Origin: Mytilus galloprovincialis
Taxonomy: Eukaryota; Mollusca; Bivalvia; Mytilida; Mytilidae
DNA length: 64,000 nucleotides
Assembly: GCF_965363235.1 (NCBI RefSeq)
Contig: NC_134845.1
Span: 60,417,261-60,481,260 of the forward strand
Direction of reading: 5' to 3'
Shown piece by piece: positions 6,373 to 61,753 of the stretch (positions are counted from its first letter, which is position 1; the number at the start of each line of letters is the position of its first letter). The position numbers and the translations under genes were made by a program. A model generated the notes under the pieces. That model searched no databases and was not told the DNA's origin. It saw only the letters and a program-made list of their open reading frames with translations.

Positions 6373-6665
6373 TAAAAAGCACACGTATAATCATGGGAAA
6401 CTGTGTGCAAGGTTTTATATCTTGTATGAAATTCAACTCAAAAGATCATCTTGATATTCAATTAATAAACATTGATAGCAAAACCTCTACGCTAGACCAT
6501 TCTTTTAAAGAAATAAGTACTGACGATAGAAATAAGTCACAGAACACATACATGTCCAAAACTCAAAGAGTCGATAGCCAAAATGAAGGAGCAGTTTCAA
6601 ATGATGATATGCGTGACTCGCCAAAACCAGAATCTGATATTGTTGGTGAAAAGAACACACAAATA
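6373..6665 (+). CDS. gene 1 exon 1 (start codon at 6393)
   Basis: The acceptor TTGCAG ends at 6372 and the donor GTAAGT starts at 6666. The open frame extends back to 6279, but I choose ATG 6393. The acceptor lies 20 bases before it, and gene 2 has the same layout with its start 22 bases after an acceptor; both proteins then start MGN. The 91 codons encode MGNCVQGF followed by a Ser/Asn/Asp/Lys-rich, probably disordered stretch. Gly2 with Cys4 suggests lipidation, but residue 6 is Gln where N-myristoylation usually prefers a small residue. The exon ends in phase 0. Confidence 0.65.
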
Positions 6666-9600
6666 GTAAGTTTAAATAAAAACTATGCAAAACTGCACTT
6701 CGCAGCTAACTCACTAAAAATCATCAACGGAAATATCAATCTAAATTAAACAACCATAATGTTTCTTATAAGATGTATTGATTACTTAAACGGTACATTT
6801 TTTTCTGTACCAGATGCGCATTTTGACAGTCAATGTCTCTTCAAAAATGCTCGAGGCCAAAACATTTGAAAAATCCAAGCGTATTATAAGGATAAAGAGG
6901 TATAAACCACAAAGGACGACAAAAAGTACAGCCAAAACCGGATAAGGAATCAGAGTTTTCTGTATGGTAGACATTTAAACAGTAAAACGCAATACAAAGA
7001 AGAAAATCCTAGAAATATGTATGAAGGAGGAAGGTTTTAAATTCATAATTGTAATATTATCACTGGAAAATTAAACTTTTAACTGAATACAGAACATTAT
7101 CTGGACACCTCATATAAAAAACTGATCTATAGCCATTTAGAGTAGTTCAGTAATCTTTTACAACTATTTACAAAGGTACTTTCCGAACTATTCAGATACT
7201 TCGCTTGTAGTCGATTAAAATCTGTTAATTATATTTTCAGAATCTTGAAAGCTTTCATTTATCTGTATCCAACAAAACAGACATTTATGAATTGTCTTAA
7301 AAGATACTGATGATTATTGAGGTGACCGCACATCAAAATAACATTTAGGACGAGACTGTGTTGATACGATTCTAATATTATTTGTGCTTTTTCTAGATCG
7401 ACATGTTCATCTAAGTAGTTTACAAATTAACAGTATGCACACTTGTCACCTTAGAAGGACACATTTATCTGACTAAAAGCAGACTAGTTTTTGATCCTGG
7501 TCTTGAAAACACAGAAATCGAATAAATAACCCCTATCACTCGAAGCTTTCATTATTCTGGGAGACCACGTAGGCAAAAAATCGGAAAGGACGCATTTATT
7601 TTTCTTAATTGAAGCAAAATGAAATTTGACTAAAATGAAAACAGGAAATTCCCTCAAACATATTAATGTTGCTACCAATTACGATATCTTGCATGTACAT
7701 TAATTGATTAGACAAACAGACATACGCCATCTCTTTTAACAATAAAAGTTTTCAAAAAGATGACGAAAAGAAAATTTTTCAATCTGGAGTCTAGTCAAAA
7801 CCATTATCCTTATTATAGAAGGCTTTTTAATCGTTTATTTTTTATTAAACTAGCTAGTGAAAAGGAAATATGAGTGATTGAAAAATATATATATTAAAAT
7901 TTGTAGACCGAAGTCGGCACCAACTTGATTCAAACTGTCAACCAGTACATAAAAGTTGAGATACACAATCCATCAGCAAATGCCCTCATTATAGGAAACG
8001 ACAATAAAGTCAATGTTACCAAGAAGGAAACAGACAGACAACCACTAGTTGACGATATCAAAGTGGGAAATAAGGACAACAAATATATCGGGGAAACCAT
8101 GAATGAAATTTTATTAGGGCATGAAATTGTAAGTTTTCCCATGCTTAAGACGTTTCATTATGTATAAATAAAGGCAACAGTAGTATACCGCTGTTCAAAA
8201 TTCATAAATCTATGGACAAAAAACAAAATCGGGGTAACAAACTAAAACTGAGGGAAACGCATTAAATATTAGAGGAGAACAACGACACAACATTAAAATG
8301 TAACACACACATTTGTTTAATCTAAAACAAAAACAAATTGATATATGTATGAATAAAACACAAAAACATGAATGAACAAACGGTTTACAGATATCGTTTC
8401 CATTTTTTCTCGGTATAATCGCTATTATTAAGAATAAAGTGAAAAAAGTTCGAATCGCAGAGTTAACTTTTAACCTGTAAGCGATATTATTAATTCCCTT
8501 CAGATCCTACATGTGTTTTGCTCTAGGTATATGAAAAATCAAGATAAACAGGCCTTTTTGTCAAGTTTCTCGTTGAGATATTACAATAATTGGATAAATT
8601 TTGGTTTAAATAATGTCGACATATTGTTTGGTAGTTTGTGAGCAAAAAAAAAAGAACAAACTGTAAATAAAGACAGTAGTAGTATACCGCTGTTTATATA
8701 GACAATAACTGTTTAGTGTCTTTAAATATTAGCTGTATTTGTACGAGGCTAGGAAACAAGGTGTATGCGAGCTTTTAGCGAGCTACTACACCTGTTTCGA
8801 GCCGAGTACAAATACAGCTGATGTTTAAAGACACTAAACAGTTATTTTCTTTATCCTGCAATTAATTCTGTATATTGTTTGTGTTTTAAAAGACACAAAA
8901 ACTAACATAATATTTAGTATTTATTTTCGATTTGTAATCCCTTGAGGCCCGCGTAGTAATATCAAAATCACACATTACGCTGAAGACGGGCTCGCAAAAA
9001 AAGAATCTCGAATGGTCAATAATAATACATCGCTCAAGGTGAATAATTATCTATTTTAACATAACAACTAATTTCAACAGTAAAAACAAATAACAAAACA
9101 TTGTCAAATTTGAAACAGAAGTGTACGAGTTGTCCTACGCTTCAGACTTGAAATTCAATAAACATGCATGCTGAAATTGACATGGTTGATTTTGTAACAC
9201 AATCATACACATTCAAGTTTTGAAATCGACAATTGTCATCGTCATTGGAATGCAACTGGAATACACATTCTGAGGTCACACAGGTTCAAACAATACTCAG
9301 TCCGGCAGTGGGCGGAGCTTTAAAGCGATATATGTATAGTATACAGATACAGCATAGCGATATCTGTAGGGCTGTATCTGTATAGTAGGACACCCAATTG
9401 CAGGATAAAAGTAATAAATCGATGAGAGAAAAGAAATCTGGGTTGAAAACTTAAAAAGAGGAAAACAACGAAACAATAAAAACAATGAAGTGCAACAACT
9501 AAAAACGCCTAAATACACATAAATGGACTATTTGATAAAAGTTGCCACATTCTTGACTTGGTACAGGACATTTTAAGAAAAAAAAATGTTGTTATAAGAG

Positions 9601-12600
9601 ATACTGTGATATGTATTGAATAAGTTATCATAATGAAAAATACTAAAATTTCATTATTTACTTAGCCCACTAACCTACTGGTGTTAAGTTGTGAAAAATG
9701 AAGATGTTTCTTTCGTTTAAAGATGTCACCCCTTGATTGCGACGCCAGATAGACTGTAAAAAAATCGTTCTTTCTTTCATTCTTTTAATATATATGTTTA
9801 TTTTTTTTTAAAACGTTGATTTTATCTTTATTATACGAAACATTTAGAAATGGAGATAAATTCTGCATGCACAACAAAAAAATGAACCTTTAATGTTTTA
9901 CAGGACAAAACAAGAGACGAATTCAAATCTAGAGTTGGAGGGAACGTTACAGAAACCATATGCAAAGGTTTGTAAAAATTGAATGAATGTGTTTCCATTT
10001 TTCATTAAAAAACTCATAATGCATATTTAAACATGAATATCAATAATGTGGTCATTTTTATAAATTTCCTGTTCACAAAACTTGGAATTTTTCGAAACAC
10101 TAAAGATTTTCTTATCCCAGGCATAGATTACCTTAGCCGTATTTGGCACAACTTTTTAGAACTTAGGATCTTCAATGCTCTTCAACTTTGTACTAGTTTG
10201 GCTTTAAAAATATTTTGATATGAGCGTCACTGATGAGTCTTATGAAGACGAAACGCGCGTCTGGCGTACTAAATTATAATCCTGGTACCTTTGATAACTA
10301 TTTACACCACTGGGTCGATGCCACTGCTGGTGGACGTTTCGTCCCCGAGGGTATCACCAGCCCAGTAGTCATCACTTCGGTGGTGACATGAATCTCAATA
10401 ATGTTGTCATTTTTATAAACCTGTTCACAAAACTTTGAATTTTTCGAAAAACTAAGGATTTTCTTATCCCATGCATAGATTACCTTAGCCGTTTTTGGCA
10501 CAACTTTTTGGAATTTAGGATCTACAATGCTCTTCAACTTTGTACTAGTTTGGCTTTAAAAATATTTTGATAAGAGCGTCACTGATGAGTCTGATGAAGA
10601 CGAAACGCGCGTCTGGCGTACTAAATTTTAATCCTGGTACCTTTGATGACTATAAACATAAACACGTATTGCATTAGAAAAAGATGGAGTTTAGAAAAAA
10701 ATACCAATAAGATGAATCATGGTTGTGGCTTTCCTATTATAGACTAAAATGGTCATATTTACTTTGAAAATAAAAAGTGCACGCAACTGATAGAAAAACG
10801 AAATTTGCAGTAAACAACCGTTGTCACAGAAGAAACGGACTTAAGTAAACATCGTGATCTCTTAATCATAATTACAGCAACGTTCTTACATTTGAAAACT
10901 GGGAAATTCAAGTAAACAAACGAAATATGTCAACACGGTGTTAACGTGCGTTTAGTTCCTGCTATGCTTGTTTGCAATCGATAGTAACTGTTCTCTTGTT
11001 TGCTAACAAAAGCATTCCTCAAGATTTGGCGGTCAAATATCTTGTCCAATTTATGTCTCTACTTTCACATTATCGAACCTAACCAAGGAAAATGTAAACT
11101 GTAAAAAAAATTAACTAAAACTCGGCCAATCTGTTTTATCGAAAGACCCGATTTCCATTTTAACAATACATGAGTACATAAACTTCATTTTAGGTAAACC
11201 ATCAACCTGTTAAATATAGACTAAATCCTGCTAATGGCACTTTTAATCTTTTGATAGAAAAAAACATTTTTGTGTTTTACTTGTTTATTGTTGTTCTACG
11301 TCAACGTGTTTTCGTATGTATTTTTAAGGTAGTCTGTGTTACCAAGCTTGAAGATTTAAGGTTCACAAGCCTAGTAGTCAGCACCTTTATGTTGACATTA
11401 TATATCATTGTTAGGTTCATTTTTCGGTAAAGTTATTGGTTAATTATTAGAAGGACTTAAATTTATTAGTTCAACGCATCGTTTGTTTCGGAGTTTTACT
11501 GTAGCATCAATTTTGCTAAACATGTATATGTTAGTGTAAAGGGGCCAACTGAAGTACGCTTTCGTGTGCAGGATTTTCTCATCGTGTTGACGATCCATTG
11601 GTGGTTCTTTTTCTGCTAAAATAGATGGATTTTCTTTTTGTATTCTTTATTCTGTTTGCCTAAATGGGTAAGGCTCTTGTGTTTGAAAAAGAGGGGCGCC
11701 AAATACCAGAGGGACATTGAAACTCATAGATCAACATTTACTCAGTATATTTCATGACGCCGGGGCGGTTTTCTTTTGCTTGACCTTTATTTTGAAAACT
11801 AAAAGTCAGATATTTCAAGCCAAGGTTGTGTAAGTACAGAAAAAAGAGGAGCTATAGATTAACAGTTCAGATTTATGAGTGTGTCTTGTACTGATAGTGT
11901 ATTGTTTTTTTCACAGGTTCTGAAATGCGTTGGAGATCAAGATCAGTTTCGATTCTTCGGCAAAAGCCTTTTCGAGATTTTTCCAAAGAACCTTCATTCA
12001 CAGTCGATCCCAGAACTATGCTACGGAACTTCCAATGGAATCAGTATGCAATGATTCAAGAAACCTTATTACGCACAGTTTCATGTGAAATTATGAAATG
12101 CGAATCCCCTGAAACACTTTCTTTAAAGATTAAAGAAATTAATGCTGAATTGCAAACTATTGTTGACAAATATAACGAGAAATTAAGGAAATCGGTTTTA
12201 AAAACAGGACATGCAAATGAACGTATAATATCAGGTCTAAATGAGAAAAGCAAAATCGTATTAAATAATGCAAACGATAAACTATTACAATTAAAGAAAG
12301 AGCGCATTCAAGATTTTCATATTATCCCGTGGAGTACAACTCATGAAATAGGAACAGCATCTGAGAGAGACAAAATGACAAGTTATGCAAAGGATTTCAA
12401 ATGTTTAATTTCAAAAAAGGTTTGCTGGCATGTATCAACTTTGATGCCTTTTAAAATACAACAATTTATTATTACATTCACGTTTGATTGCCAGAAATCA
12501 TTTGTATTGAAACAGATGATGATTGAGTTTGATTCTACTGACGTCAGCAATATTATAAAATTTATTTTTGATCCCAATGAATTTGCCAAAAAATGGCTTG

Positions 12601-13427
12601 TATCATTTACAGACCAGAAAATTTTTGTTAAGAAAAGTCCGAATAAGCTGCATGTGTACGCAAAGATTGCTAAAATGGAAGTCGAAAAGATTTTTGATGA
12701 ACTTAAGTTGGCAATAATAATAACATCAACAAAACATAGAAAAGGTGAAATAAATGATTTATCTGACTGGGCAAAATGTTTTTTGCAAAATTTAAAATCG
12801 CTGCCTCTTTCGTCGAAAGATCTTGGTGAATTTCAGTCCCTTAGAAATGACTTCGTGAAAGAATTCATTGACATTGTAGCTTCAAATTTAGAGAGCATGA
12901 ATAGCGAAATCATTGCAAATTTCAAAAACACTACCACTAATGACGTTAAATGGAGAGTGGACCCATATAATTATATAATAGAATGTCTTTGGGGTTGTAC
13001 TGAATGTTGTCCATTTTGTCACGAACCATGTCAGTATAGTGATATAGAACATATTACACATGAAAATAAACATAAATGTATCCAACATAGACCTCTGGTT
13101 GCTTACGGATCTATAAAGGACGATAGTAATACTATCATGTTGGAAAATTGCAATAGCCTAATCAGATCACCGCATAGATCTTTTAAACTAATAAATGAAG
13201 ACAATCCTCCGAAATGTTCGAATAATGACCAGCCCTTAATTAATTGGGAAATCCTTCCTGCCGTAGTTGCTGGTGAATTTAAGTATTGGAAATGGCTCAT
13301 ATGCAACAGGAAGGATGAACTACGGCAGTTCTTTCGGACTTCTGCAAATATTATTCCTAAAGAATGGAATTCAATTACCGAGGAAGATGCTATTCGTAGT
13401 TTAGATGAGATTTACATATGTAGTTGA
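6393..13427 (+). CDS. gene 1: RHIM-like motif plus VLIG/URGCP-type C-terminal region, no GTPase
   Basis: Four coding exons are inferred from splice sites: 6393-6665, 7907-8128, 9904-9967 and 11917-13427, giving about 689 residues. Phases are 0, 0 and 1, and all junctions keep the frame. Residues 1-91 are polar and start MGNC. Residues 92-165 contain the RHIM-like core L-I-I-G-N-D-N-K-V (118-126). Residues from about 188 onward match the tail of interferon-induced very large GTPases, with the Cys/His cluster at about 545-577 and a closing YWKWL...W...IT.EDA.RSL block. The GTPase (G1 P-loop) of that family is absent. Gene 2 downstream has the same structure. By family analogy I infer a cytosolic or membrane-tethered innate immune adaptor. 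The splice model lacks transcript support. Confidence 0.72.
6666..7906 (+). other. gene 1 intron 1
   Basis: Bounded by GTAAGT and TTGTAG. At about 6800-6960 it holds a repeat whose minus strand reads as part of a 62-codon open frame; I recognise the block (GATGCGCATTTTGACAGTC, then ATGTCTCTTCAAAAATGCTC) as a common mussel repeat. I see no other feature. Confidence 0.5.
7907..8128 (+). CDS. gene 1 exon 2, RHIM-like motif
   Basis: This 74-codon exon lies between acceptor TTTGTAG and donor GTAAGT, phase 0 at both ends. It encodes TEVGTNLIQTV..., then HNPSANALIIGNDNKVNVTK. The RHIM core is written [IV]-Q-[IVL]-G-x-x-N-x-[MY/hydrophobic]. Here L-I-I-G-N-D-N-K-V keeps the invariant G, the N at position 7, flanking beta-prone aliphatics and the final hydrophobic residue, but has Ile in place of Gln at position 2. 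The paralogous exon at 39022-39252 is most conserved exactly here (I-G-N-D-x-x-V-N-x-T-K-K-E). Known RHIMs (RIPK1, RIPK3, TRIF, ZBP1) assemble as amyloids to signal necroptosis or NF-kB. Confidence 0.7.
8180..8290 (+). repeat. fragment of 'CCGCTGTTC...' repeat family
   Basis: GTATACCGCTGTTCAAAATT is followed by 'GGGGTAACAAACTAAAACTG' and AGGGAAACGCATTAAA. The reverse complement of the same block order is at 46360-46515 (TTTCCCTCGGTTTTAG, GTTACCCGGATTTG, CGAACAGCGGTAT). It is a dispersed repeat inside intron 2 of gene 1. Confidence 0.55.
8704..8846. repeat. long imperfect palindrome (foldback)
   Basis: The left arm AATAACTGTTTAGTGTCTTT at 8704 is matched by AAAGACACTAAACAGTTATT ending at 8846. 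The pairing continues inward through AGCTGTATTTGTACGAGGCT against AGCCGAGTACAAATACAGCT, with a short centre around GCGAGCTTTTAGCGAGC. It lies inside intron 2 of gene 1 and looks like a foldback MITE remnant. Confidence 0.75.
8847..9903 (+). other. remainder of gene 1 intron 2
   Basis: Non-coding. TTTATCCTGCAATT near 8851 is repeated in reverse near 9399 (CAATTGCAGGATAAAAG), so the palindrome just upstream may be part of a larger inverted structure. At 9297-9410 there is a block with repeated CTGTATCTGTATAGTA-like words. The short open frame on the minus strand at 9297-9518 is not gene-like. Confidence 0.4.
9904..9967 (+). CDS. gene 1 exon 3, mini-exon
   Basis: Acceptor TTTACAG precedes 64 coding bases (DKTRDEFKSRVGGNVTETICK plus one base), followed by donor GTTTGT, leaving phase 1. 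Gene 2 has a 55-base counterpart (40889-40943) that also starts GACAAAACA and also leaves phase 1. The conserved opening and phase are the main support for this tiny exon. The donor GTTTGT is weak. Confidence 0.6.
10033..10655 (+). repeat. tandem pair of 'ACGAAACGCGCGTCTGGCG' repeats
   Basis: Two units about 355 bases apart (starts near 10035 and 10390) share AATNTCAATAATGTNGTCAT, CTTATCCCAGGCATAGATTA and GACGAAACGCGCGTCTGGCG. Between them is the head-type block with GGGTCGATGCCACTGCTGGT and ATCACCAGCCCAGTAGTC. Further copies lie at 20330-20520, 25800-25925 (reverse), 30845-31140, 38345-38690 and 48690-49025 (reverse). They are dispersed mussel repeats in intron 3 of gene 1; the open frames inside them are not genes. 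Confidence 0.75.
10656..11916 (+). other. remainder of gene 1 intron 3
   Basis: Mostly featureless AT-rich sequence. At 11535-11630 there is a diverged piece of the retroelement tail seen at 3520-3600 (AAGGGGCCAACTGAAGTACG). The intron ends in a good acceptor with a T-rich tract (TTGTTTTTTTCACAG) at 11916. Confidence 0.5.
11917..13427 (+). CDS. gene 1 exon 4: VLIG/URGCP-type C-terminal region
   Basis: The terminal exon encodes 502 residues after one split codon (G|GT) and ends with TGA. The frame is open from the acceptor; ATG 11925 is internal. It starts basic (MRWRSRSVSILRQKPFRDF), then an FQWNQYAMIQETLLRTVSCE helix region, a long alpha-helical middle, and the cluster WGCTECCPFCHEPC...H..NKHKCIQHRP. 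It closes with YWKWLICNRKDELRQFF and SITEEDAIRSLDEIYICS. In vertebrate VLIG/GVIN and URGCP proteins this cysteine/histidine-rich block and YWK...W..I...DA closing pattern lie after the GTPase. Identity to the gene 2 exon (43242-44812) is visible along its whole length. Confidence 0.85.
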
Positions 13428-35835: not shown

Positions 35836-36292
35836 TAGAAAATAGACACATTGTAAGATGGGAAACTTATTGCGTGGTTCATCTCGCCGAAGGGTAGAGT
35901 CTACTACAAACAAAGATATCAAAACATCAAAACCGAAGAAAAGAAAAATTTCAAACCGAATCAAATTAACGAAAACAAAAATCAAACTGAAGCCCGTTGC
36001 AAGCGACAATATGTTATTTGCTCCGAGGGATATGCAGTTGCAAGACCAAGAACATGTAAATCCAAATGATGACAACTTTGGATTGACACCATTAACACCG
36101 CGTGAAATTGATGTAAATCGATTTCGAACATCTGAACGTGGACAAAATGACAATTCTCATAACATTGAAAATGAGATTGAAAAATCTGAGCAAGTTACAA
36201 ATTCTGAACAGCAACCATATCATTTTCCAGGAGACAATAGGAAACAAAAACATATGACTCTTGGAATATATAATGATCAAGATGTACAAGCT
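35836..36292 (+). CDS. gene 2 exon 1 (start codon at 35858)
   Basis: Acceptor ATTCTTTCAG ends at 35835, 22 bases of UTR follow, then 145 codons and donor GTAAGT at 36293, phase 0. After MGNLLRGSSRRRV comes a Lys/Arg-rich segment (residues about 22-50, KPKKRKISNRIKLTKTKIKL), then a polar Asn/Glu/Gln-rich tail. A basic patch after an MGN start is what membrane-tethered myristoyl proteins often show. Position 6 is Arg, outside the usual N-myristoylation consensus, so lipidation is only possible. Beyond the start the exon has little similarity to gene 1. Confidence 0.68.
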
Positions 36293-39200
36293 GTAAGTAT
36301 ATAAGTATTTTACGTGACCCTTAAAACGATAAAAAGTCACAAAAACATATGTTATTCGTATAGTTATAATGTTCTGATTTCTACGATCTTATTTCGGTTC
36401 TTACATATCACATATAACAATTTCTCCAGACAATATATAACGACTCAACCAGCGTATTCAGATAGTTGATGTTTGTCCCCGTATTCAAATGGGTCCGTAT
36501 TCAGGTGAAAAGTATTCAAAATCAAACTTTGATTTAGTTTCATTTTCAAACAAAATCTTTGGGTTCTTGATATGCGGAATCTAAGCATATATTTTGTCCC
36601 AGATTTTAAGTTTGTCAAAATTGGGGTCCGAAATAAAACTTGATTTGATTTGAACAAAAAATAAATGCATAGGGTTCTTTGATAAGCCTGATCTCATCCA
36701 AAATTCAGATTTTGAATTTGGGCCCCTTATCAATTGGTCCATATGGTCAAGGGACAAAGTTATTGTCCTTTGATTTTTAGTCTCATAGTGTGTACAGTAT
36801 ATTTATTTTTTATACACCTTTCAAATTTATTTCACTATATTTGATGTATGAAGTAGTAAGTAGCTTTAAGAGATGAAAACACATTTATAAGATATAGTGG
36901 GGCATGAATTTGTAGGTAAAGTAATGATTTGGTCCAGTTTTAACAGGTGAAAATATTCTGTAAAACTGACGCTCAGACCCCTTAACATAAAATTACCCAT
37001 ATTTTACCCGATAATATTTAAAATTTATATGTTATTTGTCTCAAATATATTTTATGATAGAGCAGGTGCGATTTGTTTAGTTTGCATTTTTTGTCTAAAA
37101 GTACTACATCTAAAGGGTTCAAAGGGTAAAAAAAAAAATAGATTGGGGTTCTTTGATATGCTGAACCTAATCGTGTACTTATATGTTGGATATTGGACCA
37201 TGGAGGGTATATGTCCAATTTCAAATTTGTTTGTTCTAAAACCAAATTCGTCTGTCAGAAATGTATGCAATGTCGATTGTTCAATCGCAATCCAAATTTA
37301 AAGATGTATTGCACATTTAATAAAATAAAAAGAAGAATCAAAGTTTAAAATAGATTAATATCATACTCTTATCTAAGAAATTATACATAAAAATACAAAT
37401 TTGAAAATTTGAAGTTCATTATTATATCATTTGAAAAATAAAGGTCAATTTATAGATTTTTAAAGATATCGTATTAAAAATGAATGATATTTTGAAAAAC
37501 AAATTTAAAGAACTTTGGTTGGTTTGTTTGTTATTCTGTATAAATTGATTTGCAGAATGATATAATCTTTTTATAAAGTGAACCCCTTTCAAAACACATC
37601 TAATGTCGTCCATCAATATAAAGATAAATGAAATTATTGATGTATTTGGATATGCTGAATATTACCGTGTATTTGGATTTTAGATATAGGGCCATAACAG
37701 GTAAAAGTCCAATTTCAAATTTGTCAGTTCTTTGACTTCATTCAGGAACCTGTGATGTGTCAAATATTTGATCACAATTTAAATTCAGCAATGTTTCAAG
37801 CTTGAATACTTGCCTCAACTGTTCAAGGTTCGACCTATGCGGTTATAGCCAGCTTCCCCAAGTGGTTAATTGTACTAGATATGTCATTCTGTGTGATCAC
37901 CATCACTTGTTAAAACAATTTGAGTCTTAAACGATCAATTTGATCTAAACTTCATCCAATGAGGCTGACAATATAAACGTGATTAAACCTTGCAGTCAAT
38001 CTGTAACTGTTCAATACCTTTTTATACGATTCAATATATTGTTTGGTAACAGTTAAGAGCAGCTTTGAACTGTCTGAATATATACTAATCAGATCTTTGT
38101 TTAGTGCAAGCGTATTGTTTGAACAGTACCAGATAAGTATGATAGCTTAATGCGACTGAGCGAGCCTGATTTATACTGTATTGTGCAGTCTTTTAAGAGC
38201 TCTTCCGATACAAATAACCGTTTTATGTTACCAGTGCATTGTAGTTAAAACCACCAAAGCGTATGGGGAAGAGTAACAACTCCGGTTAAATCTTAAATAA
38301 TTTAATATACTTTGATTGCAATGTACAAACGAGTTTAATTTGATGAGTCCATTTACAACTGAGTCAATGCCACTGCTTGTGGAGTTTTAATACACCAACT
38401 GTATCACCAGTCAAGTAGTCAGCATTTCTGTGCTGACATTGATTATCATTGATATGGTCATATTTATAAATTAACTGTTTATAAAACTGTTGAATTTTTG
38501 AAATACTAAGTCTTTTCTTCCTCAGGAATAAATTACCTTAGCTGTATTTGGCAAAACGTTTAGGAATTTTGGTCCTCAATGTTCTTCAACTTTTTTTAAC
38601 TATTTTGGATACGAGCGTCACTGATCAGTGTTTTGTAGACGAAACACGCGTCTGGCGTAAAAATAAAATATAATCCTGATATCTATGATGAGTTTATTGA
38701 TATCGAACAAACATAACTAATTATCATTGAAAAAAACTTGACAAATAGTAAAATAAGGTGGAAAAAAACAGAAATCCAAATGAATGGCTCTACACAAATG
38801 TCAAACAAGAGAGACAGGCTTGGACTACCACTTAACAATTTTGAGGTTTGATACGGTGAAAATTTTTGACTTTCTTCACCCCTTATTCATCACTCATTTG
38901 GTAGTATGAATACGTCATCAATAATGGAATCGCTTTCGTTTATGAAATCAAACTGTTTTAAAGAAAATTTGAAAATTGTTTACTTAATGAAATAGTAATT
39001 ATTTTTCAAATTCTATCTTAGACGGAACTCGGCACTGCAACAAATGTTATACAAACTGTACACCACACATATAACATACAGATACACAGTCCATTCACGG
39101 ACGCCATCGTTATCGGAAACGACAGTACAGTCAATATAACCAAGAAAGAAGGGACTAGACAGCTATTAGTTGATCATTTTATAATGGCAAAAACAGATAC

Positions 39201-42200
39201 AAAGTATATAAGGAAAACTATGGACGAATCATCATTACCACGTCTGAATAAGGTAAATTATCCAAGTAATAATAATGGTTTGGTCTTTTTAATATTAAAG
39301 TTGAGTCAATGCATGATGTATGAATCAGATTACTAAAACTCAGCTATTTTGACATTATAATCTGAATTGTATATACAGGATTTATGTCAGTAGTTCACAA
39401 ACTACGTTCGACCAATTTTTTTTCCAAACAATTGTCCACACCATGTGCATTTAAAAGTTTGAGACCTCAGACCTGCTTGGCGAAAAGATCTCTTAAATGG
39501 CGATCCCTTACCTTAGACTTTGTCATTGTACAGTTAACATTTTTTTACCACTGCGTTCTTACAATTGAAAACGAAATAATTCTTTAAATCTTTAAGGCGT
39601 ACATGTATGTAATGTGAAGTTGCGACTTCAGTACAATCGGAAATAACTTATTATGTTTGATTGCTTAAGAATATCACTAAATTTAATACATTAACTTCAA
39701 TTTCAATTCTCTTATAACAACCTTTATTCAGCTTATAAAGAACTTCACTTATCCTTATTGCAAATCTTATAAATACTTCTCAATAAAATTGATAGAACTG
39801 GAGAAAAAATTATGTTTTTGATTTAGGTATTATGTTGAATGCAGTATATATTTGTATGTATACCATTTAAAAACATGTAATTTATCCTTGCTATTTCATT
39901 CCATCTGTTGAAATGACAATTCAAAATTATTAACATTCCTTTAACTAACAATGTTACCACTTACAGAGAGCTCATACTAAGGTTTGATAATTGCAATATA
40001 AGACGCTGAATTTGTGTGCAATCGAATGTGTGGTTATGTTATTATCCCGTCATTGTGTTATTGTGTTATGGTAAATTTTTATTTTTTGCTAATGTGCTTT
40101 GTCTATATGCATTTTTGCTTTTCATTGTTGACATTTTTTTTATACTGATTAAGATTATAACACTATGTTGAATGTTGTTCATCTATTTTTGACATTTTTA
40201 CCTATTATGTCTGTTTGTTTTGTTCAGAAATTGTTGTCAATTTAATGTAATTTTATGCGACTGTCATATGAGAGAGCGATTTAGCTAGCAAAAATTAAAT
40301 CCCCTATTTTCTACATAAAAAAATACCTGTACAAAACCAGGTATATGGCAGTTATCCATTCGTTTAATGTGTTTGTGTTAAACACATGTCTAATTTTCCT
40401 TTTGATAAGGAACTTTCCGTGTTTAATTTTACTCGGAGTTCAGTATTTTTGTTATTTTACTTTTGGCCAGACAATTCTAGGTCATGTTTTATGAACATTT
40501 AACAAAACCTCTACCAGGCTCGGATTCTAAATATTCATAAAACAAGTCCGGGAATTATCTTACCTATCCTGAGTAGAACAAAAATCGTTCCTTTGTTGAG
40601 CTAATATATCAATGTAGATGTAACATTCGGGTTGACTAATCTTTTTTCATGTGATACTCATTGAAATTTATTATAACGAAAATGTATATTTCATTACTAA
40701 AAAGTTCGATTTTTCAAAAAGATTTGTTTTTATAAGTTCTGTGAGTAAATATTTGCTTTCATTATGTGCCTGTTAATATAATTCATCTTTACTACAAATA
40801 TATAATTGACATTCGCAGTTGTAAATGCATGTCATACGTTAAGAGTTACAAAACAAATATCATTTAAAAATTGCAATTTTTTTTCTAGGACAAAACAGAG
40901 ACAATACAAACTGGGGTTGCTGAGAAAGTTGTTGGAAACATAAGTATAAATTCTTCTTATTGTCTAAATTTAAAAAAATGTATACGTAACTCGGTATCAA
41001 AAGACAATTCTAACAATTTTGAAAACATTAAATTCATACCTTTCACAGTCACGTCTGGTAAACCAATTTGATCTCAACAAAATATTTACTAGGACATCTG
41101 AAATTCTGTCATCATATTGAGTTTTTCTAGTATAAAATATCACAAATATAGACACTGTCGGTCGACTTTCCATCAATTAATTGTCAATATGCTGATAAAT
41201 AGGAGAATGTAATTGTATGGTCAACTAAATGAGAGCATGTCTTGTTTATTACTCTGAGCAATGTAACTTAATAAGACTTTGGAATGACCTTTCTTTCTGT
41301 AAAAAATATGTCTCCCGCTCTGCCATGGGAGAGAGTAAATTATCTCCCTTGTATTAGTCAATCGAAATCTGGCATTTTTAACGTGAAGCATAATAAATAC
41401 AGATATCTCCTGTAATAGTGCCTATGGAAAATAAGTGAAAATAGGAAAGGAAATGAAATTATGCTTCTCAACAACCTACGACCACACAAAGAGTAGTTGC
41501 AATGATTTGTAACGTCAAGAGGACGTGTAACTGATACGACACATTGGATTTAATGTCATCATTCCGACCGGCTACAAATTGGTGCTTGAAGTAAAACCAA
41601 ACAGACATCAGGGTTTTACTGCCGACCTGAGGAAAACTTAGAGTGAATGTATCTCTATTCCCATATTACACATACTTCTTCGTACTAAAATTGAAAATTA
41701 CACATTGATGAGTTTAGGAGAATGCCAAAACACTGATGTATACATACGTTTTATTGGTATGCTCGTTTTCATTTATGTCATGGACAGCTGCGGTAGTAAA
41801 GTCATACCGGTGTCATTTAAATTAGCCTTGGTCCGAGACTGCCTCTCTTTTTTATCTATGACATGACCTTCTAATATTTAACAACAAAACCACAGCTTGT
41901 CGAAAATTCAACCAGCCATGATAGTTTCGTTCATATGCCAATGAGGGTTAGATACATATTATAATTAGTTGGAACTTTGTTCGTCTTTTCAATATCTCTT
42001 TATTATGCCCAATTTATGTTCATTATGTTTTAAGGTCTGTGCGTCAGTTCGTTCGTCCGTTTGTTCGTTCGTTCGTCCGTTCGTCCGTTCGTCCGTCCGT
42101 TCGTCCCGCTTCAGATTAAAGTTTTTGGTCGAGGTAGTTTTTGATGAAGTTGAACTTGAAACTTAGTACACATGTTCCTTATGACATGATCTTTCTAATT

Positions 42201-44812
42201 TTAATGCACTAAACATAGAAAATGATTGTGCGAATGGGGCATCCGTGTACTTAGGACACATTCTTGTTACAAACAAAAAGGGAGATTGAATTTCAATAAT
42301 TATCATCGTTAATATTAATCAAATGTGCTGAATAGCATATACCAATAAGACAGAGAGCATCAAACCAGGTGGTGTAGCAATATCGCAGACATACTCATCA
42401 CTAGATGACATCGGTATCGTAGTACTAAAATAAATTATCAAATTTCATTAAGGTAAAACTAATTCTAAGGTCAATGATACGCTCATGCAATTGCGTATTA
42501 TTTTGAACAAGAATGTGTCCGTAGTACACGGATGCCCCACTCGTACTATCATTTTGTATGTTCAGTGGACCGTGAAATTGGGTTGATAATTTGGAATTAA
42601 AATTAGAAAGATCATATCATAGGGAACACTAGTACTAAGTTAAAAACTACCTTGACTAAACATTTTAACCTGAAGCGGGACGAACGAACGAATGGACGAA
42701 CGGACGAACGAACGAACAGACGGACGAACGGACCCACAGACCAGAAAACCTAATGCCCCTCTACTTTCGTAGGTGGGGCATAAAAATAGACCCATTAAAT
42801 TCAAACTGTAAACTATAGAACTGTCAACTGAGTGCAACATTGAGTCATATTTGGCAACATGTAATTATTTTACGCTTCTTAATTGGTAAACAACTACAAT
42901 TGTGTTCTTGTTTGTCCCGCTTATAGGTCTGTCCAAACACAAAGTTTTTACGAAAGTAATATTTCTCTTGGCCTAATAATCACAAACTTTTGTAAATACT
43001 ACTAGCGTCTTGTACGTCTCCAACAATGAAATTATGTGAATATAGGAGGAAAATACATGGAATATTCGATATCATCTAATCTATTAACTTTACATGTCAT
43101 TGTATTGTACTATATTGTTCTCTGCTGTCTGTCCATGTTTTATATTATGTAATATATGTTGTTAATTTTGCCATGCCATGTTTATGGTTTTGCAGTAACG
43201 ATTCATTCATTCAACTAAGAAAAATATTTCTATATTCACAGCTTCTAAAAAGAGCAAACATAAGCTAAAGAGATCGATATCTGCAGATACAGACCCATAT
43301 CTTTTTCGTCGATCAAAGTCGAACCGAAAATTAAAAAAGCGTGCATACACATTGGATTCAAGGAATATATTGCGCAACTTTCAGTGGACACAATATGAAT
43401 TGGTGCAAGAATCTTTGCTACGTACAGTCTCTTGTAAAATAAAAAAATGTGAATCCGTAGACAGGCTTACAGAAAAAATTGAAGAAATAAAAACTGAATT
43501 GAAAAATCTTGTTGAGCAACCATTGCCCCGTCTGAAAAAACAGTTGAAAAAGTCTTTAGGGAAAGCTGGAAATGAAAACGACCAACACCAGATAACAGAA
43601 CGCATAATAACGGGTTTTAATGGTAATAGCGAATTGATTTTACGCGACGCATACAAAACACTGTCGAAGTTGAAAGAAAGACGCATTGAAGATCTTAATT
43701 CCAAACAATCGGACTCACCGCATGTCAAGGAATTTGCTTATGAAAGAGAAATAATGACAACCAAAGACATTGCAAAAAGAATTATGTCTTTAATTTCTGA
43801 AAAGGTTATTTCATATGTGACTACTTTATTGCCTTTACAAATACAGCAAGAAATTATAACATTTACGTTTGAATGCCAGAAGTCTTTTGTATTAAAACAA
43901 TTGATGATCGATTTTTTTTCTTGCGACTTTAGTACTATAATGAAATATATTCTGAATCCAAATGAATATGCCAAAAACTGGCTTATATCTTTTACAAATA
44001 AAAAAATATTTTATCAGAAAAGTCCAGAAAAAATGCATATTTACGCAAAGATTGCAAAAAATGAAGTGGAGCATACATTTGAAGAAATAAAAACTGCCAT
44101 GATAGAGTCAACAAAAGATGGAATTAGTGTTTCTGACTGGGCGAAAAGTTTTTTACATCATATCCAAAAGTTTAGTTCAGTGCCATTTTCATCGAGAGAC
44201 ATTGATGATCTTCAGCTCCCAAATAAAATTTACTTTAAAAAAATAAATGAAATTTTAAATTCGAATTTGGAAGGCATCAAAACTGAAATCATTGAAAACT
44301 TCAAAAACACTACTGCTAATGACGTTAAATGGAGTGAGGACCCGTATAGTAAAATAATAGAATGTCTTTGGGGTTGTACTGAGTGTTGTCCATTTTGTCA
44401 AGAACCATGCCAGTATAGTGATAAAGAACATGTCCTACAAGGGAATAAACATAAATGTATTCAACATCGACCTGTAGGACTTTGCGGTTTTATGAACGAA
44501 GAGAATAATATGATCATGATAAACAGTTGTAGCCGTCTTGTTAATTCTCCTGATGAGCGTTTAAGGCATAAACATGAATATATTTCTGACCAATGTAGGA
44601 ATTATTATCAAAGCTTATTCAATGGTTGGGAAATTAGACCTTACGTAAATGGTAATGAATGTCAGTACTGGAAATACATAATGTGCAGATGGAAGGATCA
44701 ATTGCAGCAGTTCTATGGTGTAAAAATAAATGATATCGATAATGAGGAGTTGAAATCAATAACTTTTGAAGATGCAAATTGTAGCTTAAATGAGATTTAT
44801 ATATGTAGTTAA
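35858..44812 (+). CDS. gene 2: paralogue of gene 1, RHIM-like motif plus VLIG/URGCP-type C-terminal region
   Basis: Four coding exons: 35858-36292, 39022-39252, 40889-40943 and 43242-44812, giving about 763 residues with phases 0, 0 and 1, identical to gene 1. Residues 1-145 start MGNLLRGSS and contain a strongly basic stretch. The RHIM-like core is I-V-I-G-N-D-S-T-V (174-182). The C-terminal 522 residues resemble the tail of very large interferon-induced GTPases, with the Cys/His cluster from about residue 617. No P-loop GTPase is present in any exon. Gene 2 lies 22 kb downstream on the same strand, so the pair arose by tandem duplication. The function is inferred, not known. Confidence 0.72.
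36293..39021 (+). other. gene 2 intron 1, with repeats
   Basis: Between 36440 and 37800 it holds several diverged copies of a block of the type GGGTTCTTTGATATGCTGAA ... TGGACC ... CCAATTTCAAATTTGT (clear at 36665-36760, 37140-37300 and 37640-37790; a reversed copy is at 46060-46215). At 38345-38690 lies a full copy of the 'ACGAAACGCGCGTCTGGCG' repeat. The open frames in this span come from the repeats. Confidence 0.55.
38345..38690 (+). repeat. 'ACGAAACGCGCGTCTGGCG' family, near-complete copy
   Basis: It runs from CTGAGTCAATGCCACTGCTT through ATCACCAGTCAAGTAGTCAG, ACCTTAGCTGTATTTGGCAA and GACGAAACACGCGTCTGGCG to TAATCCTGATATCTATGATG. It is the most complete copy of the family here, so useful as a reference. 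Confidence 0.75.
39022..39252 (+). CDS. gene 2 exon 2, RHIM-like motif
   Basis: A 77-codon exon between acceptor TATCTTAG and donor GTAAAT, phase 0 at both ends. It encodes TELGTATNVIQTVHHTYNIQ, then IHSPFTDAIVIGNDSTVNIT. The core I-V-I-G-N-D-S-T-V keeps the hydrophobic pattern and the Gly but has Ser where RHIM cores and gene 1 have Asn. The rest (TKKE..RQ.LVD) matches gene 1 exon 2 well. There is no methionine start in this exon, so it is visible only through splicing logic and paralogue comparison. Confidence 0.7.
39253..40888 (+). other. gene 2 intron 2
   Basis: Non-coding. At 40255-40460 it contains a copy of the retroelement tail family (CTGTCATATGAGAGAGCGAT, TTTAGCTAGC, CCTATTTTCTACATAAAAA, GGAACTTTCCGTGTTTAATT), also seen at 17640-17830. 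The open frame 39384-39587 shows no family likeness. Confidence 0.5.
40889..40943 (+). CDS. gene 2 exon 3, mini-exon
   Basis: Acceptor TTTTTTCTAG, 55 coding bases (DKTETIQTGVAEKVVGNI plus one base), donor GTATAA. It leaves phase 1 like its gene 1 partner and shares the opening Asp-Lys-Thr. The donor is weak, so an alternative is that this exon is skipped in some transcripts; skipping would break the frame into exon 4. Confidence 0.6.
42005..42265 (+). repeat. 'GCCCCACC...GGGGCAT' repeat, forward copy
   Basis: TCTGTGCGTCAGTTCGTTCG, a GTCCGTTCGTCC tract, CTTCAGATTAAAGTTTTTGG and GCGAATGGGGCATCCGTGTA are recognisable. The head is diverged (TTATGCCCAATTTATGTTC). Confidence 0.7.
42505..42785 (-). 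repeat. 'GCCCCACC...GGGGCAT' repeat, reverse copy
   Basis: GAATGTGTCCGTAGTACACG, GATGCCCCACTCGTACTATC, CCTGAAGCGGGACGAACGAA and a closing TTTCGTAGGTGGGGCATAAA are the reverse complement of the forward copies. The minus-strand open frame 42640-42840 and the plus-strand frame 41969-42166 come from these repeats. Confidence 0.75.
43242..44812 (+). CDS. gene 2 exon 4: VLIG/URGCP-type C-terminal region
   Basis: The terminal exon encodes 522 residues after a split codon (A|CT) and ends with TAA. The frame is open from the acceptor through 43352, so the region before the first similarity (SKKSKHKLKRSIS..., basic) is coding too. It has NILRNFQWTQYELVQESLLR, a helical middle, the WGCTECCPFCQEPC cluster with NKHKCIQHRP, and YWKYIMCRWKDQLQQFYG ... 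ITFEDANCSLNEIYICS. All Cys and His of the cluster are shared with gene 1. In the VLIG family this region follows a large GTPase domain, which is missing here. Confidence 0.85.
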
Positions 44813-52821: not shown

Positions 52822-54276
52822 CTAATCGAACAGAAATGCCAATATCATTGCAACAAATCCAAACACAACAAACAAAATAATTTTTCTGCTCCAAATGTAT
52901 ATACAGTGAAGCGCTAATAGACCTAACACTTCTACCTTCTGTTTCAAAAATGCAAATATGAAGGCATTATAACCATTGTTAGATCGATGTAACGGGTCTG
53001 CATTGTGTTGTAAAAGGACTTCAACTACTTTTATATGTCCCAATTCACAGGATGTGTGAAGTGGACTGAATCCTTCCATTGTACAAATATTAAGGTCAGC
53101 TCCGTTTCTAAGTAAATATTTGACAATGTTACCATGACCTTTATTTGATGCAAAGAATAATGCAGTTAAACCTGTGTTTGATCGGTGATTTATATTTGCT
53201 CCATTTTGGATAAGATTATGAACTACGCGAAAGCAACCATTTATTGATGCAGTGTGCAAGGGACTTATAGAATCTTGGCTAGTGCTCAAATTAACATTTG
53301 CATGATTTCGGAGTAAAATGTTTACTACCTCGAGGTTAGATTTTGTAGCCCCTACGTGCAAGGCTGTTACTCCGTTTTCTGTCTGCAGATTTATATCGAT
53401 GCCATGAGTGAGAAGAACAGATATTACAGGCAGATAACCGTTTTCAGCTGCGACATGTAATGGACTGCAACCCGTGTTATTGCATAAATTAATGTCAGCA
53501 CCATGATCAATAAGTCGGCTGACGGTTTCATCTTTCCGTGAACATGAGGCATAATACAGAGCACTGCACCCGGATTTTGATCGAAGGTTTATATCGCTAC
53601 CGTTTTCCAGAAGAGAATTTACAATTCTCAAATGACCCCTTTTAGAAGCTACATGAAGAGCCGTATTTCCATTCACACATTGTCTATTGATGTCTGCCTG
53701 ATTTTTCAAAAGAACGTCAACAATTGCGGTATGTCCATTTTGGGAAGCTATATATAAAGATGATAAACAGTGTGGTGCAGCAATATTAACATTCGCTCCA
53801 TGTTTGATCAAAATTTCAACATTGCTCATGTGGCCATTCACACAAGATAAATAAAGTGGAGTAAAACTTTGAGTGCATGTAGAAAGAACATTTGGGTCTG
53901 CCCCATTTTCAAGAAGCAATGTTGCAACAGCACTGCCGCCATTTTCGGATGCAAAGTGAAGAGCAGTTCGTCCTGTAGACGTACACTCATTAACTTTAGC
54001 CCCAAATTGCAAAAGAAACTTTATTGTTTCAAGATTGCCGTTTATTGAGGAGAAATAAAGTGCTGACTTCTTGTTGCCATCATTAGAACTTTTATTTGGG
54101 TCAGCACCATTTTCGAGTAGTATTTGAACGACATTACCATGATTAAATTCAGAGGCTGCGTGAAGTGGTGTAAATCCTTGTTCATTGAATTGATTGGGAT
54201 TGGCACCGTTCTGTAGAAGTGATGCTACTTCACTTATGTTCCCTCTCTTTGATTCGGTGAAGAGATCTGTGTTCAT
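52822..54276 (-). CDS. ankyrin-repeat protein with C-terminal membrane anchor
   Basis: An uninterrupted 484-residue frame. After MNTDLFTESKRGNISEVASL come about 13 ankyrin repeats of the form G.TALH.AS..GH..IV..LL.NGADIN, covering residues 1 to about 430, followed by a degenerate fourteenth. The last 30 residues contain SRKIILFVVFGFVAMILAFL, one hydrophobic helix with only FD after it, so the protein should be tail-anchored with the repeats facing the cytosol. Ankyrin repeats bind other proteins; no other domain is present, so the partner is unknown. An acceptor-like TTCTTTATTCCAG lies 18 bases before the start on the coding strand, so a 5'-UTR exon further upstream is likely. Confidence 0.88.
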   Translation of the reverse strand: MNTDLFTESKRGNISEVASLLQNGANPNQFNEQGFTPLHAASEFNHGNVVQILLENGADPNKSSNDGNKKSALYFSSINGNLETIKFLLQFGAKVNECTSTGRTALHFASENGGSAVATLLLENGADPNVLSTCTQSFTPLYLSCVNGHMSNVEILIKHGANVNIAAPHCLSSLYIASQNGHTAIVDVLLKNQADINRQCVNGNTALHVASKRGHLRIVNSLLENGSDINLRSKSGCSALYYASCSRKDETVSRLIDHGADINLCNNTGCSPLHVAAENGYLPVISVLLTHGIDINLQTENGVTALHVGATKSNLEVVNILLRNHANVNLSTSQDSISPLHTASINGCFRVVHNLIQNGANINHRSNTGLTALFFASNKGHGNIVKYLLRNGADLNICTMEGFSPLHTSCELGHIKVVEVLLQHNADPLHRSNNGYNAFIFAFLKQKVEVLGLLALHCIYIWSRKIILFVVFGFVAMILAFLFD

Positions 54277-54800
54277 ATTTGAAGGGATGTTTACCTGGAA
54301 TAAAGAACAGTAGAAGATAAAGTGCTAACCAATAAAAGCACATGATAAAACCATTGAAATTTAAGGGATTCTTGTTACTCATATAGTTTTCTGTGAATAA
54401 TGTATTGTTTTTATTAATGTGAAACTGTTCTTTATTTAGCTATATATGGGTCACATTACCCGTTTCCGTTCTAAATTTCATTATTGGTTGAACAGCAGAA
54501 GAGGTCGAGTCATTCTGGGGGGTAAATACCAAAAATATCAACAAATATCATGTTGGTTGTGTGATGAAAAATTATTTAGTCTTAGATGCATGGTGTTGTT
54601 TTTATTAGTGGTTATTGTCTTAGAACTAGCTGTCAGTAACTGCGAGTACTCTCAGATCTGTACTTAATGTCTTTTTGTTGTTGGAATTTAAAAGTACCTG
54701 GCCACTTCCACTCTGTGCTTTTGTTATATATATTATATTTGTATCCATCTAATGAGTAAAAACTTTTTCAATTGATTTTTATAGTTCGTTTTTATGTTGT
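54277..54800. other. upstream flank of the ankyrin gene
   Basis: It contains the presumed 5'-UTR intron of the ankyrin gene. The small plus-strand frame 54446-54667 has a hydrophobic C-terminal half, but no start context or family likeness supports it as a gene. Confidence 0.35.
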
Positions 54801-58240: not shown

Positions 58241-59630
58241 AGCTCACCTGGCCTAAAAGGCCATGTGAGCTTTTCTCATCACTTGGCGTCCGTCGTCGTC
58301 GTCGTCGTCGTCGACGACGACGTCAATTTTTCAAACATCTTCTCCTCTGAAACTACTGAATGGATTTGAATGAAACTTAGCATGATTGTTCCTTAGAGTA
58401 TCCTGCACAAAGTGTGTGCTTCGATTTTTGATTCGTCAAAAAACATGGCCGCCGTTACTTAAAATAGAACATAGGGGTCAAATGCAGTTTTTGGCTTATA
58501 TCTCAAAAACGAAAGCATTTAGAGCAAACCTGACGTGGGGTAAAAATGTTCATTAGGTCAAGATCTATCAGCCCTGAAATTTTCAGATGAATCAAACAAA
58601 CCATTGTTGGGTTGCTGCCACTTAATTGGTAATTTTAAGGAAATTCTGCAGTTTTTGGTCATTATCTTGAATATTATTATAGATAAAGATAAACTGTAAA
58701 CAGCAAAAAGGATCAGCAAAGTAAGATCTACAAATAAGTCAATATGACCAAAATTGTCAATTGACCCCTTAAGGGGTTATTGTCCTTTAATGACAATTTT
58801 TCACAATTTGTTCATCATATTTGCTAACTTTAAAAAATCTTCTTCTCTGAAACTGCTAAATGGATTTGGATGAAACTTAGCATGATTGTTCCTTAGATTA
58901 TCCTGCACAAAGTGTGTGCTTCGATTTTTGATCCGTCAAAAAACATGGCCGCCGTTACTTAAAATAGAACATAGGGGTCAAATGCAGTTTTTGGCTTATA
59001 TCTCAAAAACGAAAGCATTTAGAGCAAATCTGACATGGGGTAAAAATGTTCATTAGGTCAAGATCTATCAGCCCTGAAATTTTCAGATGAATCAAACAAA
59101 CCATTGTTGGGTTGCTGCCACTTAATTGGTAATTTTAAGGAAATTTTGCAGTTTTTGGTCATTATCTTGAATATTATTATAGATACAGATAAACTGTTAA
59201 TAGCAAAAATGTTAAACAAAGTAAGATCTACAAATAAGTCAATTTGACCAAAATTGTCAATTGACCTCTTAAGGAGTTATTGCCCTTTAAAGATTGTTTT
59301 CACAATTTGTTCATCATGTTGACTCACTTTAAAAAATCTTCTCCTTTGAAAATGCTGTATCAATTTCAGCCAAACTTAGGCTAAATGAGTTTTAGAGTTT
59401 CAGAGTATCTAGTATAAATTTTATATTTCATTTCCTTGTATGTCAGAAGATAGCTCCTATGGCTAAAATAGAACATAGGAGAAAATGATTTTTTTTTTTT
59501 GCTTTTGAAGAAAATAGGACGATTCAAAGAACATTTAAATAAATTGAAAAGCCAAAATAATCATTGATGAGAGATTAAACCAAAAAAAATCAGGTGAGCG
59601 ATTATGGCTCTTGAGAGCCTCTTGTTTCTT
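58241..59630 (+). mobile_element. CGTCGTC-headed repeat made of about 500-bp tandem units
   Basis: The head AGCTCACCTGGCCTAAAAGG forms a palindrome with CCATGTGAGCT, followed by GTCCGTCGTCGTCGTCG. The far end CAGGTGAGC (59591-59599) mirrors the head word GCTCACCTG (58242-58250). Inside, the word ATCTTCTCCTCTGAAACT recurs at about 58337, 58837 and 59337, so two full units and a partial third are exactly about 500 bases apart. No protein is encoded. I recognise the head as a very common molluscan repeat. Confidence 0.8.
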
Positions 59631-61458: not shown

Positions 61459-61753
61459 TATTTGTATTACCTTTTTTGTATCAAATAATTAATCGTGTTG
61501 GTGTATGACGTATTTATAAGACAACATTATCCTAAAGGTAGACAAAAATAAGACGTGCTTCAAATACATGGTTCGTCATATGTAGCATCCAACTACATGA
61601 ACTACAAGCCAAAGGATTTTTTTTATTTCTGAGATTCCTATTAATTTTATATAATAAATACAGCTGTTTAAAAATGCCAAAAAGGCAACGGATGAACGCC
61701 CATTTATATTATATCGTTTCAACTACCATTGCAGATGGGTTTTTTTATTTCAG

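Follow-up and report, generated by a model that had tools for sequence, protein, structure and literature searches.

A mussel gene family joining a VLIG-type C-terminal domain to a RHIM-like motif

Introduction

RHIMs are sticky motifs of cell-death signalling that form functional amyloid and pair with the RHIMs of RIPK-type proteins. RIPK1, RIPK3, ZBP1, TRIF and the zebra mussel RIPK1 share a hydrophobic-x-hydrophobic-G-x-x-N/S core. The core tetrad of the RHIM is given as V/I-Q-V/I-G, the natural tetrad variants named as tested in human RIPK3 all retain the Q with mixed activity, and mutation of the RHIM in the C-terminus of the zebra mussel RIPK1 weakened or blocked NF-kB activation in human cells (PMC12119088). 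Fly RHIM-like, fungal PP-motif and bacterial BASS3 motifs are likewise described as RHIM-like motifs joined to immune sensors or effectors (PMC7889193, PMC7885112), and the question of whether the RHIM is the sole signalling amyloid of metazoans has been raised (PMC7889193). For bivalve iridovirus 1, a CARD+RHIM protein resembling bivalve sequences has been predicted (PMC12452177). For the VLIG family, the human member GVIN1 was reported in 2025 to form coats on cytosolic bacteria, with co-factors required (PMC11974893).

Here, we analysed a 64,000-nucleotide stretch (C8:60417261-60481260, hereafter the window) of the 1.38 Gb genome of a mussel. It contains two members of a predicted family, and two more lie elsewhere on the same contig. 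Like the VLIG/GVIN/URGCP GTPases, genes 1-4 possess the C-terminal ~340 residues with an invariant Cys/His cluster (gene 4 is cut inside the cluster); however, those GTPases are open frames of 1285-2454 aa with a GTPase, whereas our models range from 466 to 767 aa and have no GTPase match (Pfam, for gene 1 and the gene 2 tail). The hydrophobic-x-hydrophobic-G-x-x-N/S core is shared with the RHIM proteins named above, and gene 4 even has VQIG, but the tetrad Q of RHIM proteins is absent from genes 1-3, and the motif is paired with a VLIG tail. Pfam detected neither a kinase nor a Death or TIR domain in gene 1. Nor did Pfam find an NLR, HeLo-type or peptidoglycan-recognition domain in gene 1, unlike the fly, fungal and bacterial amyloid-motif systems, which are represented in flies by PGRP-LC and Imd. 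The iridovirus protein has in common with this family a RHIM at the bivalve host-virus interface, but it is the product of a viral gene and carries a CARD in place of the VLIG tail. RHIM signalling is known from bivalves, and genes 1-4 may be linked to that of the zebra mussel RIPK1 or to the iridovirus RHIM protein.

An earlier note on this DNA had regarded the combination of motif and VLIG tail as new, and no description of a RHIM and a VLIG in one protein was found among the open-licence papers listed on RHIM or very large GTPases in mussels, bivalves or molluscs. The modules are known; their combination was not found described in the literature searched, and annotated protein homologs may exist elsewhere.

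Results

Gene 1 and its paralogs

All features of genes 1 and 2 are on the forward strand of the window. Gene 1 starts with exon 1 (6393..6665), which opens MGNCVQGF and shows low conservation past its start; genes 2 and 3 likewise start with MGN. The RHIM-like exon 2 encodes 74 aa (7907..8128), and its core LIIGNDNKV occupies residues 118-126 (7985..8011). It is followed by the 64-nt exon 3 (9904..9967; phase 0 in, 1 out) and by exon 4, which comprises a helical linker, the VLIG C-terminal domain and the stop (11917..13427). Joining the four exons gives a translation of 689 aa with no internal stop, and every intron is GT-AG. A direct repeat of 239 bp (94%), with copies 352 bp apart from start to start, lies in intron 3 at 10068-10658.

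Gene 1 is one member of a predicted four-gene family, a point absent from the earlier note. Gene 2 spans 35858-44812 of the window, with a model of 763 aa: exon 1 is basic and begins MGNLLRGSSRRR (35858..36292), the RHIM-like exon 2 (39022..39252) contains the core IVIGNDSTV (39106..39132), and a VLIG tail is encoded by exon 4 (43242..44812). Its 55-nt exon 3 (40889..40943; phase 1 out) is predicted from similarity and phase, and its donor is weak. Gene 3 (C8:47773075-47787583; 767 aa) lies 12.6 Mb from gene 1 on the same contig; its small exon 3, located in the same way, shares with gene 1 both the length of 64 nt and the GTTTGT donor. A 1089-codon open frame antisense to gene 3, probably a transposable element, is found in its third intron (L012:2044-5310, minus strand). 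When the genome was searched with exon 2, three places were obtained among five candidates scored, namely genes 1-3 (E 8e-42, 1e-13 and 1e-7).

The earlier note had proposed the joins 6665/7907, 8128/9904 and 9967/11917 as yielding one 689-aa protein. All three use GT-AG sites and are in frame, and genes 2 and 3, which have the identical exon order and the same intron phases of 0, 0 and 1, provide comparative support for joins that could previously only be guessed. Exon 2 and the tail could in principle belong to separate genes or isoforms; since three paralogs with a tail identity of 51-56% agree in order, strand, phases and GT-AG sites, such misjoining is very improbable. An AG acceptor, read by eye, is located 20-22 nt 5' of the MGN start codon in genes 1, 2 and 3, which suggests a common non-coding first exon.

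Gene 4 (C8:47748293-47759413) is near gene 3 and is shorter and divergent. Its three-exon model of 466 aa starts with MGN, carries VQIGNGNRI in the middle exon (from residue 84) and has a tail that ends just inside the Cys/His cluster. For the first exon there are three distinct candidates, and the one used was chosen partly for its MGN start. The junction between the middle and last exons is in phase 1, as in genes 1-3. The similarity of the middle exon to exon 2 of genes 1, 2 and 3 is not significant (624, 396 and 1167 of 5000 shuffles do as well), and a genome search with it returned no place besides gene 4 (one candidate scored), so its homology to exon 2 is based on position and phase.

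The VLIG-type tail and the missing GTPase

The earlier note had assigned a VLIG C-terminal region with a Cys/His cluster to gene 1, and this was confirmed. The part of exon 4 at 12396..13403 is homologous to the final ~340 aa of VLIG GTPases: residues 160-495 of the 502 encoded by the exon align with the last ~340 residues of five VLIG-type open frames at 27-31% identity (E 3e-42 to 7e-48). The conserved cluster maps to C547, C551, C554, C558, H565, H572, C574, H577 and C598 in gene 1 numbering (12996..13151). These nine positions are invariant in all 11 aligned tails, gene 4 having been left out of the alignment, and the cluster is probably zinc-binding. Genes 1-3 have both domain and cluster; in gene 4 the domain is present but its cluster is cut short. 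The alignments indicate that the tail of genes 1-4 is VLIG-derived. The ~155 residues that open exon 4 are helical by prediction, with a low-confidence start, and showed no significant resemblance to the five VLIGs used for comparison. A DivIVA match to gene 1 (E 0.019, below the cut-off) was dismissed as a chance helical match.

Searching the genome with the tail gave at least 27 rows, with E as low as 2e-46 to the C-termini of long open frames. They comprise genes 1-4, another 20 rows whose open frames run to 1285-2454 aa, and three with frames of 308-350 aa; the 20 long-frame rows represent 19 places, two adjacent rows being counted as one gene. URGCP_GTPase was detected in all five long frames tested (Pfam, E 3e-115 or better), and URGCP as well in four of them. 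One of the three short-frame places (L036) holds a VLIG gene whose frames are broken. Around the two isolated tail pieces, L034 and L035, no VLIG head or GTPase match was found in 9.9 kb.

Several minor observations were made at these places. The gene strands of L034 and L035 carry 3 and 2 matches, respectively, to a still looser RHIM-like pattern. On the minus strand of L034 (C6:72884000-72893900), LIIGNINYV occurs ~8 kb upstream of the isolated VLIG-tail frame and is either a chance occurrence or a further RHIM-like exon. The VLIG open frame at L014 (C5, about 52.45 Mb) has MGNFNSRDKLVQ near its start, and an MGN beginning may be common to some full VLIGs. A RHIM exon 5' of true VLIG genes was sought in 4.7-5.0 kb of additional sequence read for five of the 19 places; the lone relaxed match on the gene strand, VTFGKGNGIVV (L031), was taken as chance.

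The absence of the GTPase, also claimed previously, was corroborated. Queried with the VLIG head and GTPase segments of the five open frames, neither the window nor L009-L012 gave a tblastn match at E<=1e-3, and L028 gave none either; L009-L012 and L028 cover the surroundings of genes 3 and 4. Pfam gave no match to URGCP (PF25496) or URGCP_GTPase (PF25683) in the gene 1 protein or the gene 2 tail.

On an unrooted 12-row tail tree, a branch supported at 100/99 separates tails 1-4 from the eight other tails, and the gene 4 tail sits on a long branch (1.52). Without a fixed root, this grouping fits a single origin of the architecture. It also bears on the idea that these proteins are VLIG-derived regulators or decoys, the tail pairing with full-length VLIG tails and damping or tuning their assembly while exons 1 and 2 only localise the protein. 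The tail is indeed homologous to VLIG C-termini and potential targets exist, since at least 19 long-frame places match it and all five tested are VLIGs. However, a dedicated role is suggested both by the separation of tails 1-4 from the eight other tails sampled and by the ~155-residue beginning of exon 4, which lacks significant similarity to the five VLIGs; decoy action alone would also leave the selection on exon 2 described below unexplained. We consider it improbable.

The RHIM-like motif of exon 2

The core tetrads are LIIG in gene 1, IVIG in genes 2 and 3, and VQIG in gene 4. The published tetrad is thus satisfied by gene 4, and genes 1-3 deviate from it at the Q. No match of Pfam RHIM (PF12721) to genes 1-3 was obtained at E<=10. 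For gene 4, a 34-residue core peptide scored 12.2 bits (E 0.14) and a 54-residue piece 7.5 bits (E 4.3), the curated cut-off being 20 bits. As a positive control we used the RHIM exon found on contig C13 upstream of a Death-domain exon, and it also remained under the cut-off (15.0 and 14.6 bits), so the profile is insensitive here and cannot exclude a divergent RHIM. The whole-genome search with PF12721 was near noise, with seven places and a best E of 1.78; one of these places, L024, is the C13 gene. Five kinds of query were run by sequence against the PDB (exon 2, the A1 alignment, the core peptide, the exon-4 tail and the C13 RHIM peptides), and they produced either no match or chance matches only (E 0.34 or worse).

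Patterns were counted in six frames over 16 sequences (183,815 bases). The relaxed RHIM pattern matched 12 times and was not above chance, as shuffles averaged 9.4 matches (range 4-15). The only match to the strict pattern was VQIGNGN of gene 4, against a shuffled mean of 0.25; since shuffles reach up to 2, this match is too common to prove a RHIM by itself. In alignments to the C13 RHIM, 295, 152, 48 and 43 of 5000 shuffles equalled the result for genes 1, 2, 3 and 4, respectively.

In exon 2 of genes 1-3, 23 of the 81 columns are invariant. The densest invariant run is the core, IGN..VN..KKE (8 of 15 columns), and QTV 5' of the core and VD 3' of it are also invariant. By the Nei-Gojobori method, dN/dS for the pairs 1-2, 1-3 and 2-3 was 0.28, 0.30 and 0.40 in exon 2, 0.34, 0.38 and 0.32 in the tail, and 0.94, 0.50 and 0.51 in exon 1; these are rough values, as the bootstrap ranges for exon 1 overlap those for exon 2 and synonymous divergence is large (pS 0.47-0.65). 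They roughly indicate purifying selection on exon 2, with a constraint about equal to that on the tail.

The earlier note had read a RHIM-like core in exon 2. The string LIIGNDNKV is present at residues 118-126, and its counterparts are conserved in the three paralogs, but with the tetrad Q missing and no Pfam RHIM match, the exon is a putative RHIM, and the RHIM label for genes 1-3 is weaker than had been stated. The same data can be read as a real and functional family in which exon 2 of genes 1-3 is a conserved linear motif for docking or beta-augmentation that merely resembles a RHIM, with scaffolding through the VLIG tail. The missing Q, the lack of a Pfam match and the chance-level relaxed pattern agree with this, as does the invariance of QTV and VD, which means that selection extends past a RHIM-sized stretch; conservation is nevertheless densest at the RHIM-like core, and the middle exon of gene 4 contains a true tetrad. 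A docking motif is a serious possibility, although we would not expect it to be the answer.

A candidate RHIM and Death-domain gene on C13

At about 58.76 Mb of C13, a candidate gene, read exon by exon, has a RHIM exon (L037:9052-9372) containing NIQIGNNNTM, the source of the 15.0-bit score, and about 2.5 kb downstream a Death-domain exon (L038:2048-2278). The latter was identified by Pfam at E 7e-7, and its top PDB match is RIPK1 (E 8e-4). From these matches, we propose it as a candidate RIPK1- or IMD-like gene and as a possible partner of genes 1-4.

Discussion

The most likely of the readings considered is that genes 1-4 encode adaptor proteins in amyloid signalling of the RHIM type, where the VLIG C-terminus acts as a sensor or dock; we judge it about evenly balanced between right and wrong. 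It is favoured by the architecture shared by three paralogs, with a shorter form in gene 4, by the constraint on exon 2 with its maximum on the core, by the grouping of tails 1-4, and by the occurrence in one genome of the gene 4 VQIG tetrad and the C13 RHIM and Death-domain exons. It is disfavoured by the missing Q, the lack of a Pfam match for genes 1-3, the low score of the longer gene 4 piece, a relaxed pattern that is not above chance and a strict one that shuffles also produce, the shuffles that align to the C13 RHIM as well as the exons do, a gene 4 middle exon without significant similarity to exon 2, a gene 4 first exon picked in part for its MGN start, and MGN starts in which position 6 is not a small residue.

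If they resemble known RHIM pathways, and with the VLIG C-terminal domain as the input, such adaptors could act in four steps. First, the variable MGN N-terminus might tether the protein to a membrane by acylation. This step is the weak one: N-myristoylation uses an MG start and favours a small residue at position 6, and genes 1-3 and the chosen first exon of gene 4, which all begin MGN, have Q, R, H and K there. Second, the VLIG C-terminal domain would bind a VLIG GTPase assembled on its target, or a ligand seen by VLIGs, in which the Cys/His-cluster C-terminal domain sits behind the GTPase. Third, the resulting clustering would concentrate the exon-2 motif locally and, if its resemblance to the RHIM is meaningful, nucleate a cross-beta stack. 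Fourth, the stack could recruit a RHIM protein, for example the product of the C13 gene, with an NF-kB or cell-death output.

GVIN1 probably has the same C-terminal domain as the tail of genes 1-4, in keeping with the URGCP domains that tie it to the family. By analogy, proteins with a GVIN1-type C-terminal domain would be natural candidates to read VLIG coats. The complete bivalve pathway, in which a membrane-tethered adaptor with the VLIG C-terminal domain as input and a RHIM-type motif as output couples the VLIG coats formed on invaders to a protein with RHIM and Death domain, is speculative and on present evidence rather unlikely. A conserved family joining the VLIG C-terminal domain to a RHIM-like motif provides a concrete, testable route for VLIG signalling and would give animals another architecture for RHIM-type motifs. 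If the complete pathway exists, VLIGs would be signal-triggering platforms besides coat proteins.

Other features of the window

Two long, overlapping open frames on the forward strand at 61696-63391 had no Pfam match at E<=0.001. A unit of ~500 bp is arranged in tandem at 58298-59401, with two copies 97% identical over 300 bases and a third, partial copy at ~75% over 105 bases. Finally, a 500-residue open frame on the minus strand (52822-54324) encodes ankyrin repeats (Ank_2, E 1e-123) and a hydrophobic end that resembles a membrane anchor.
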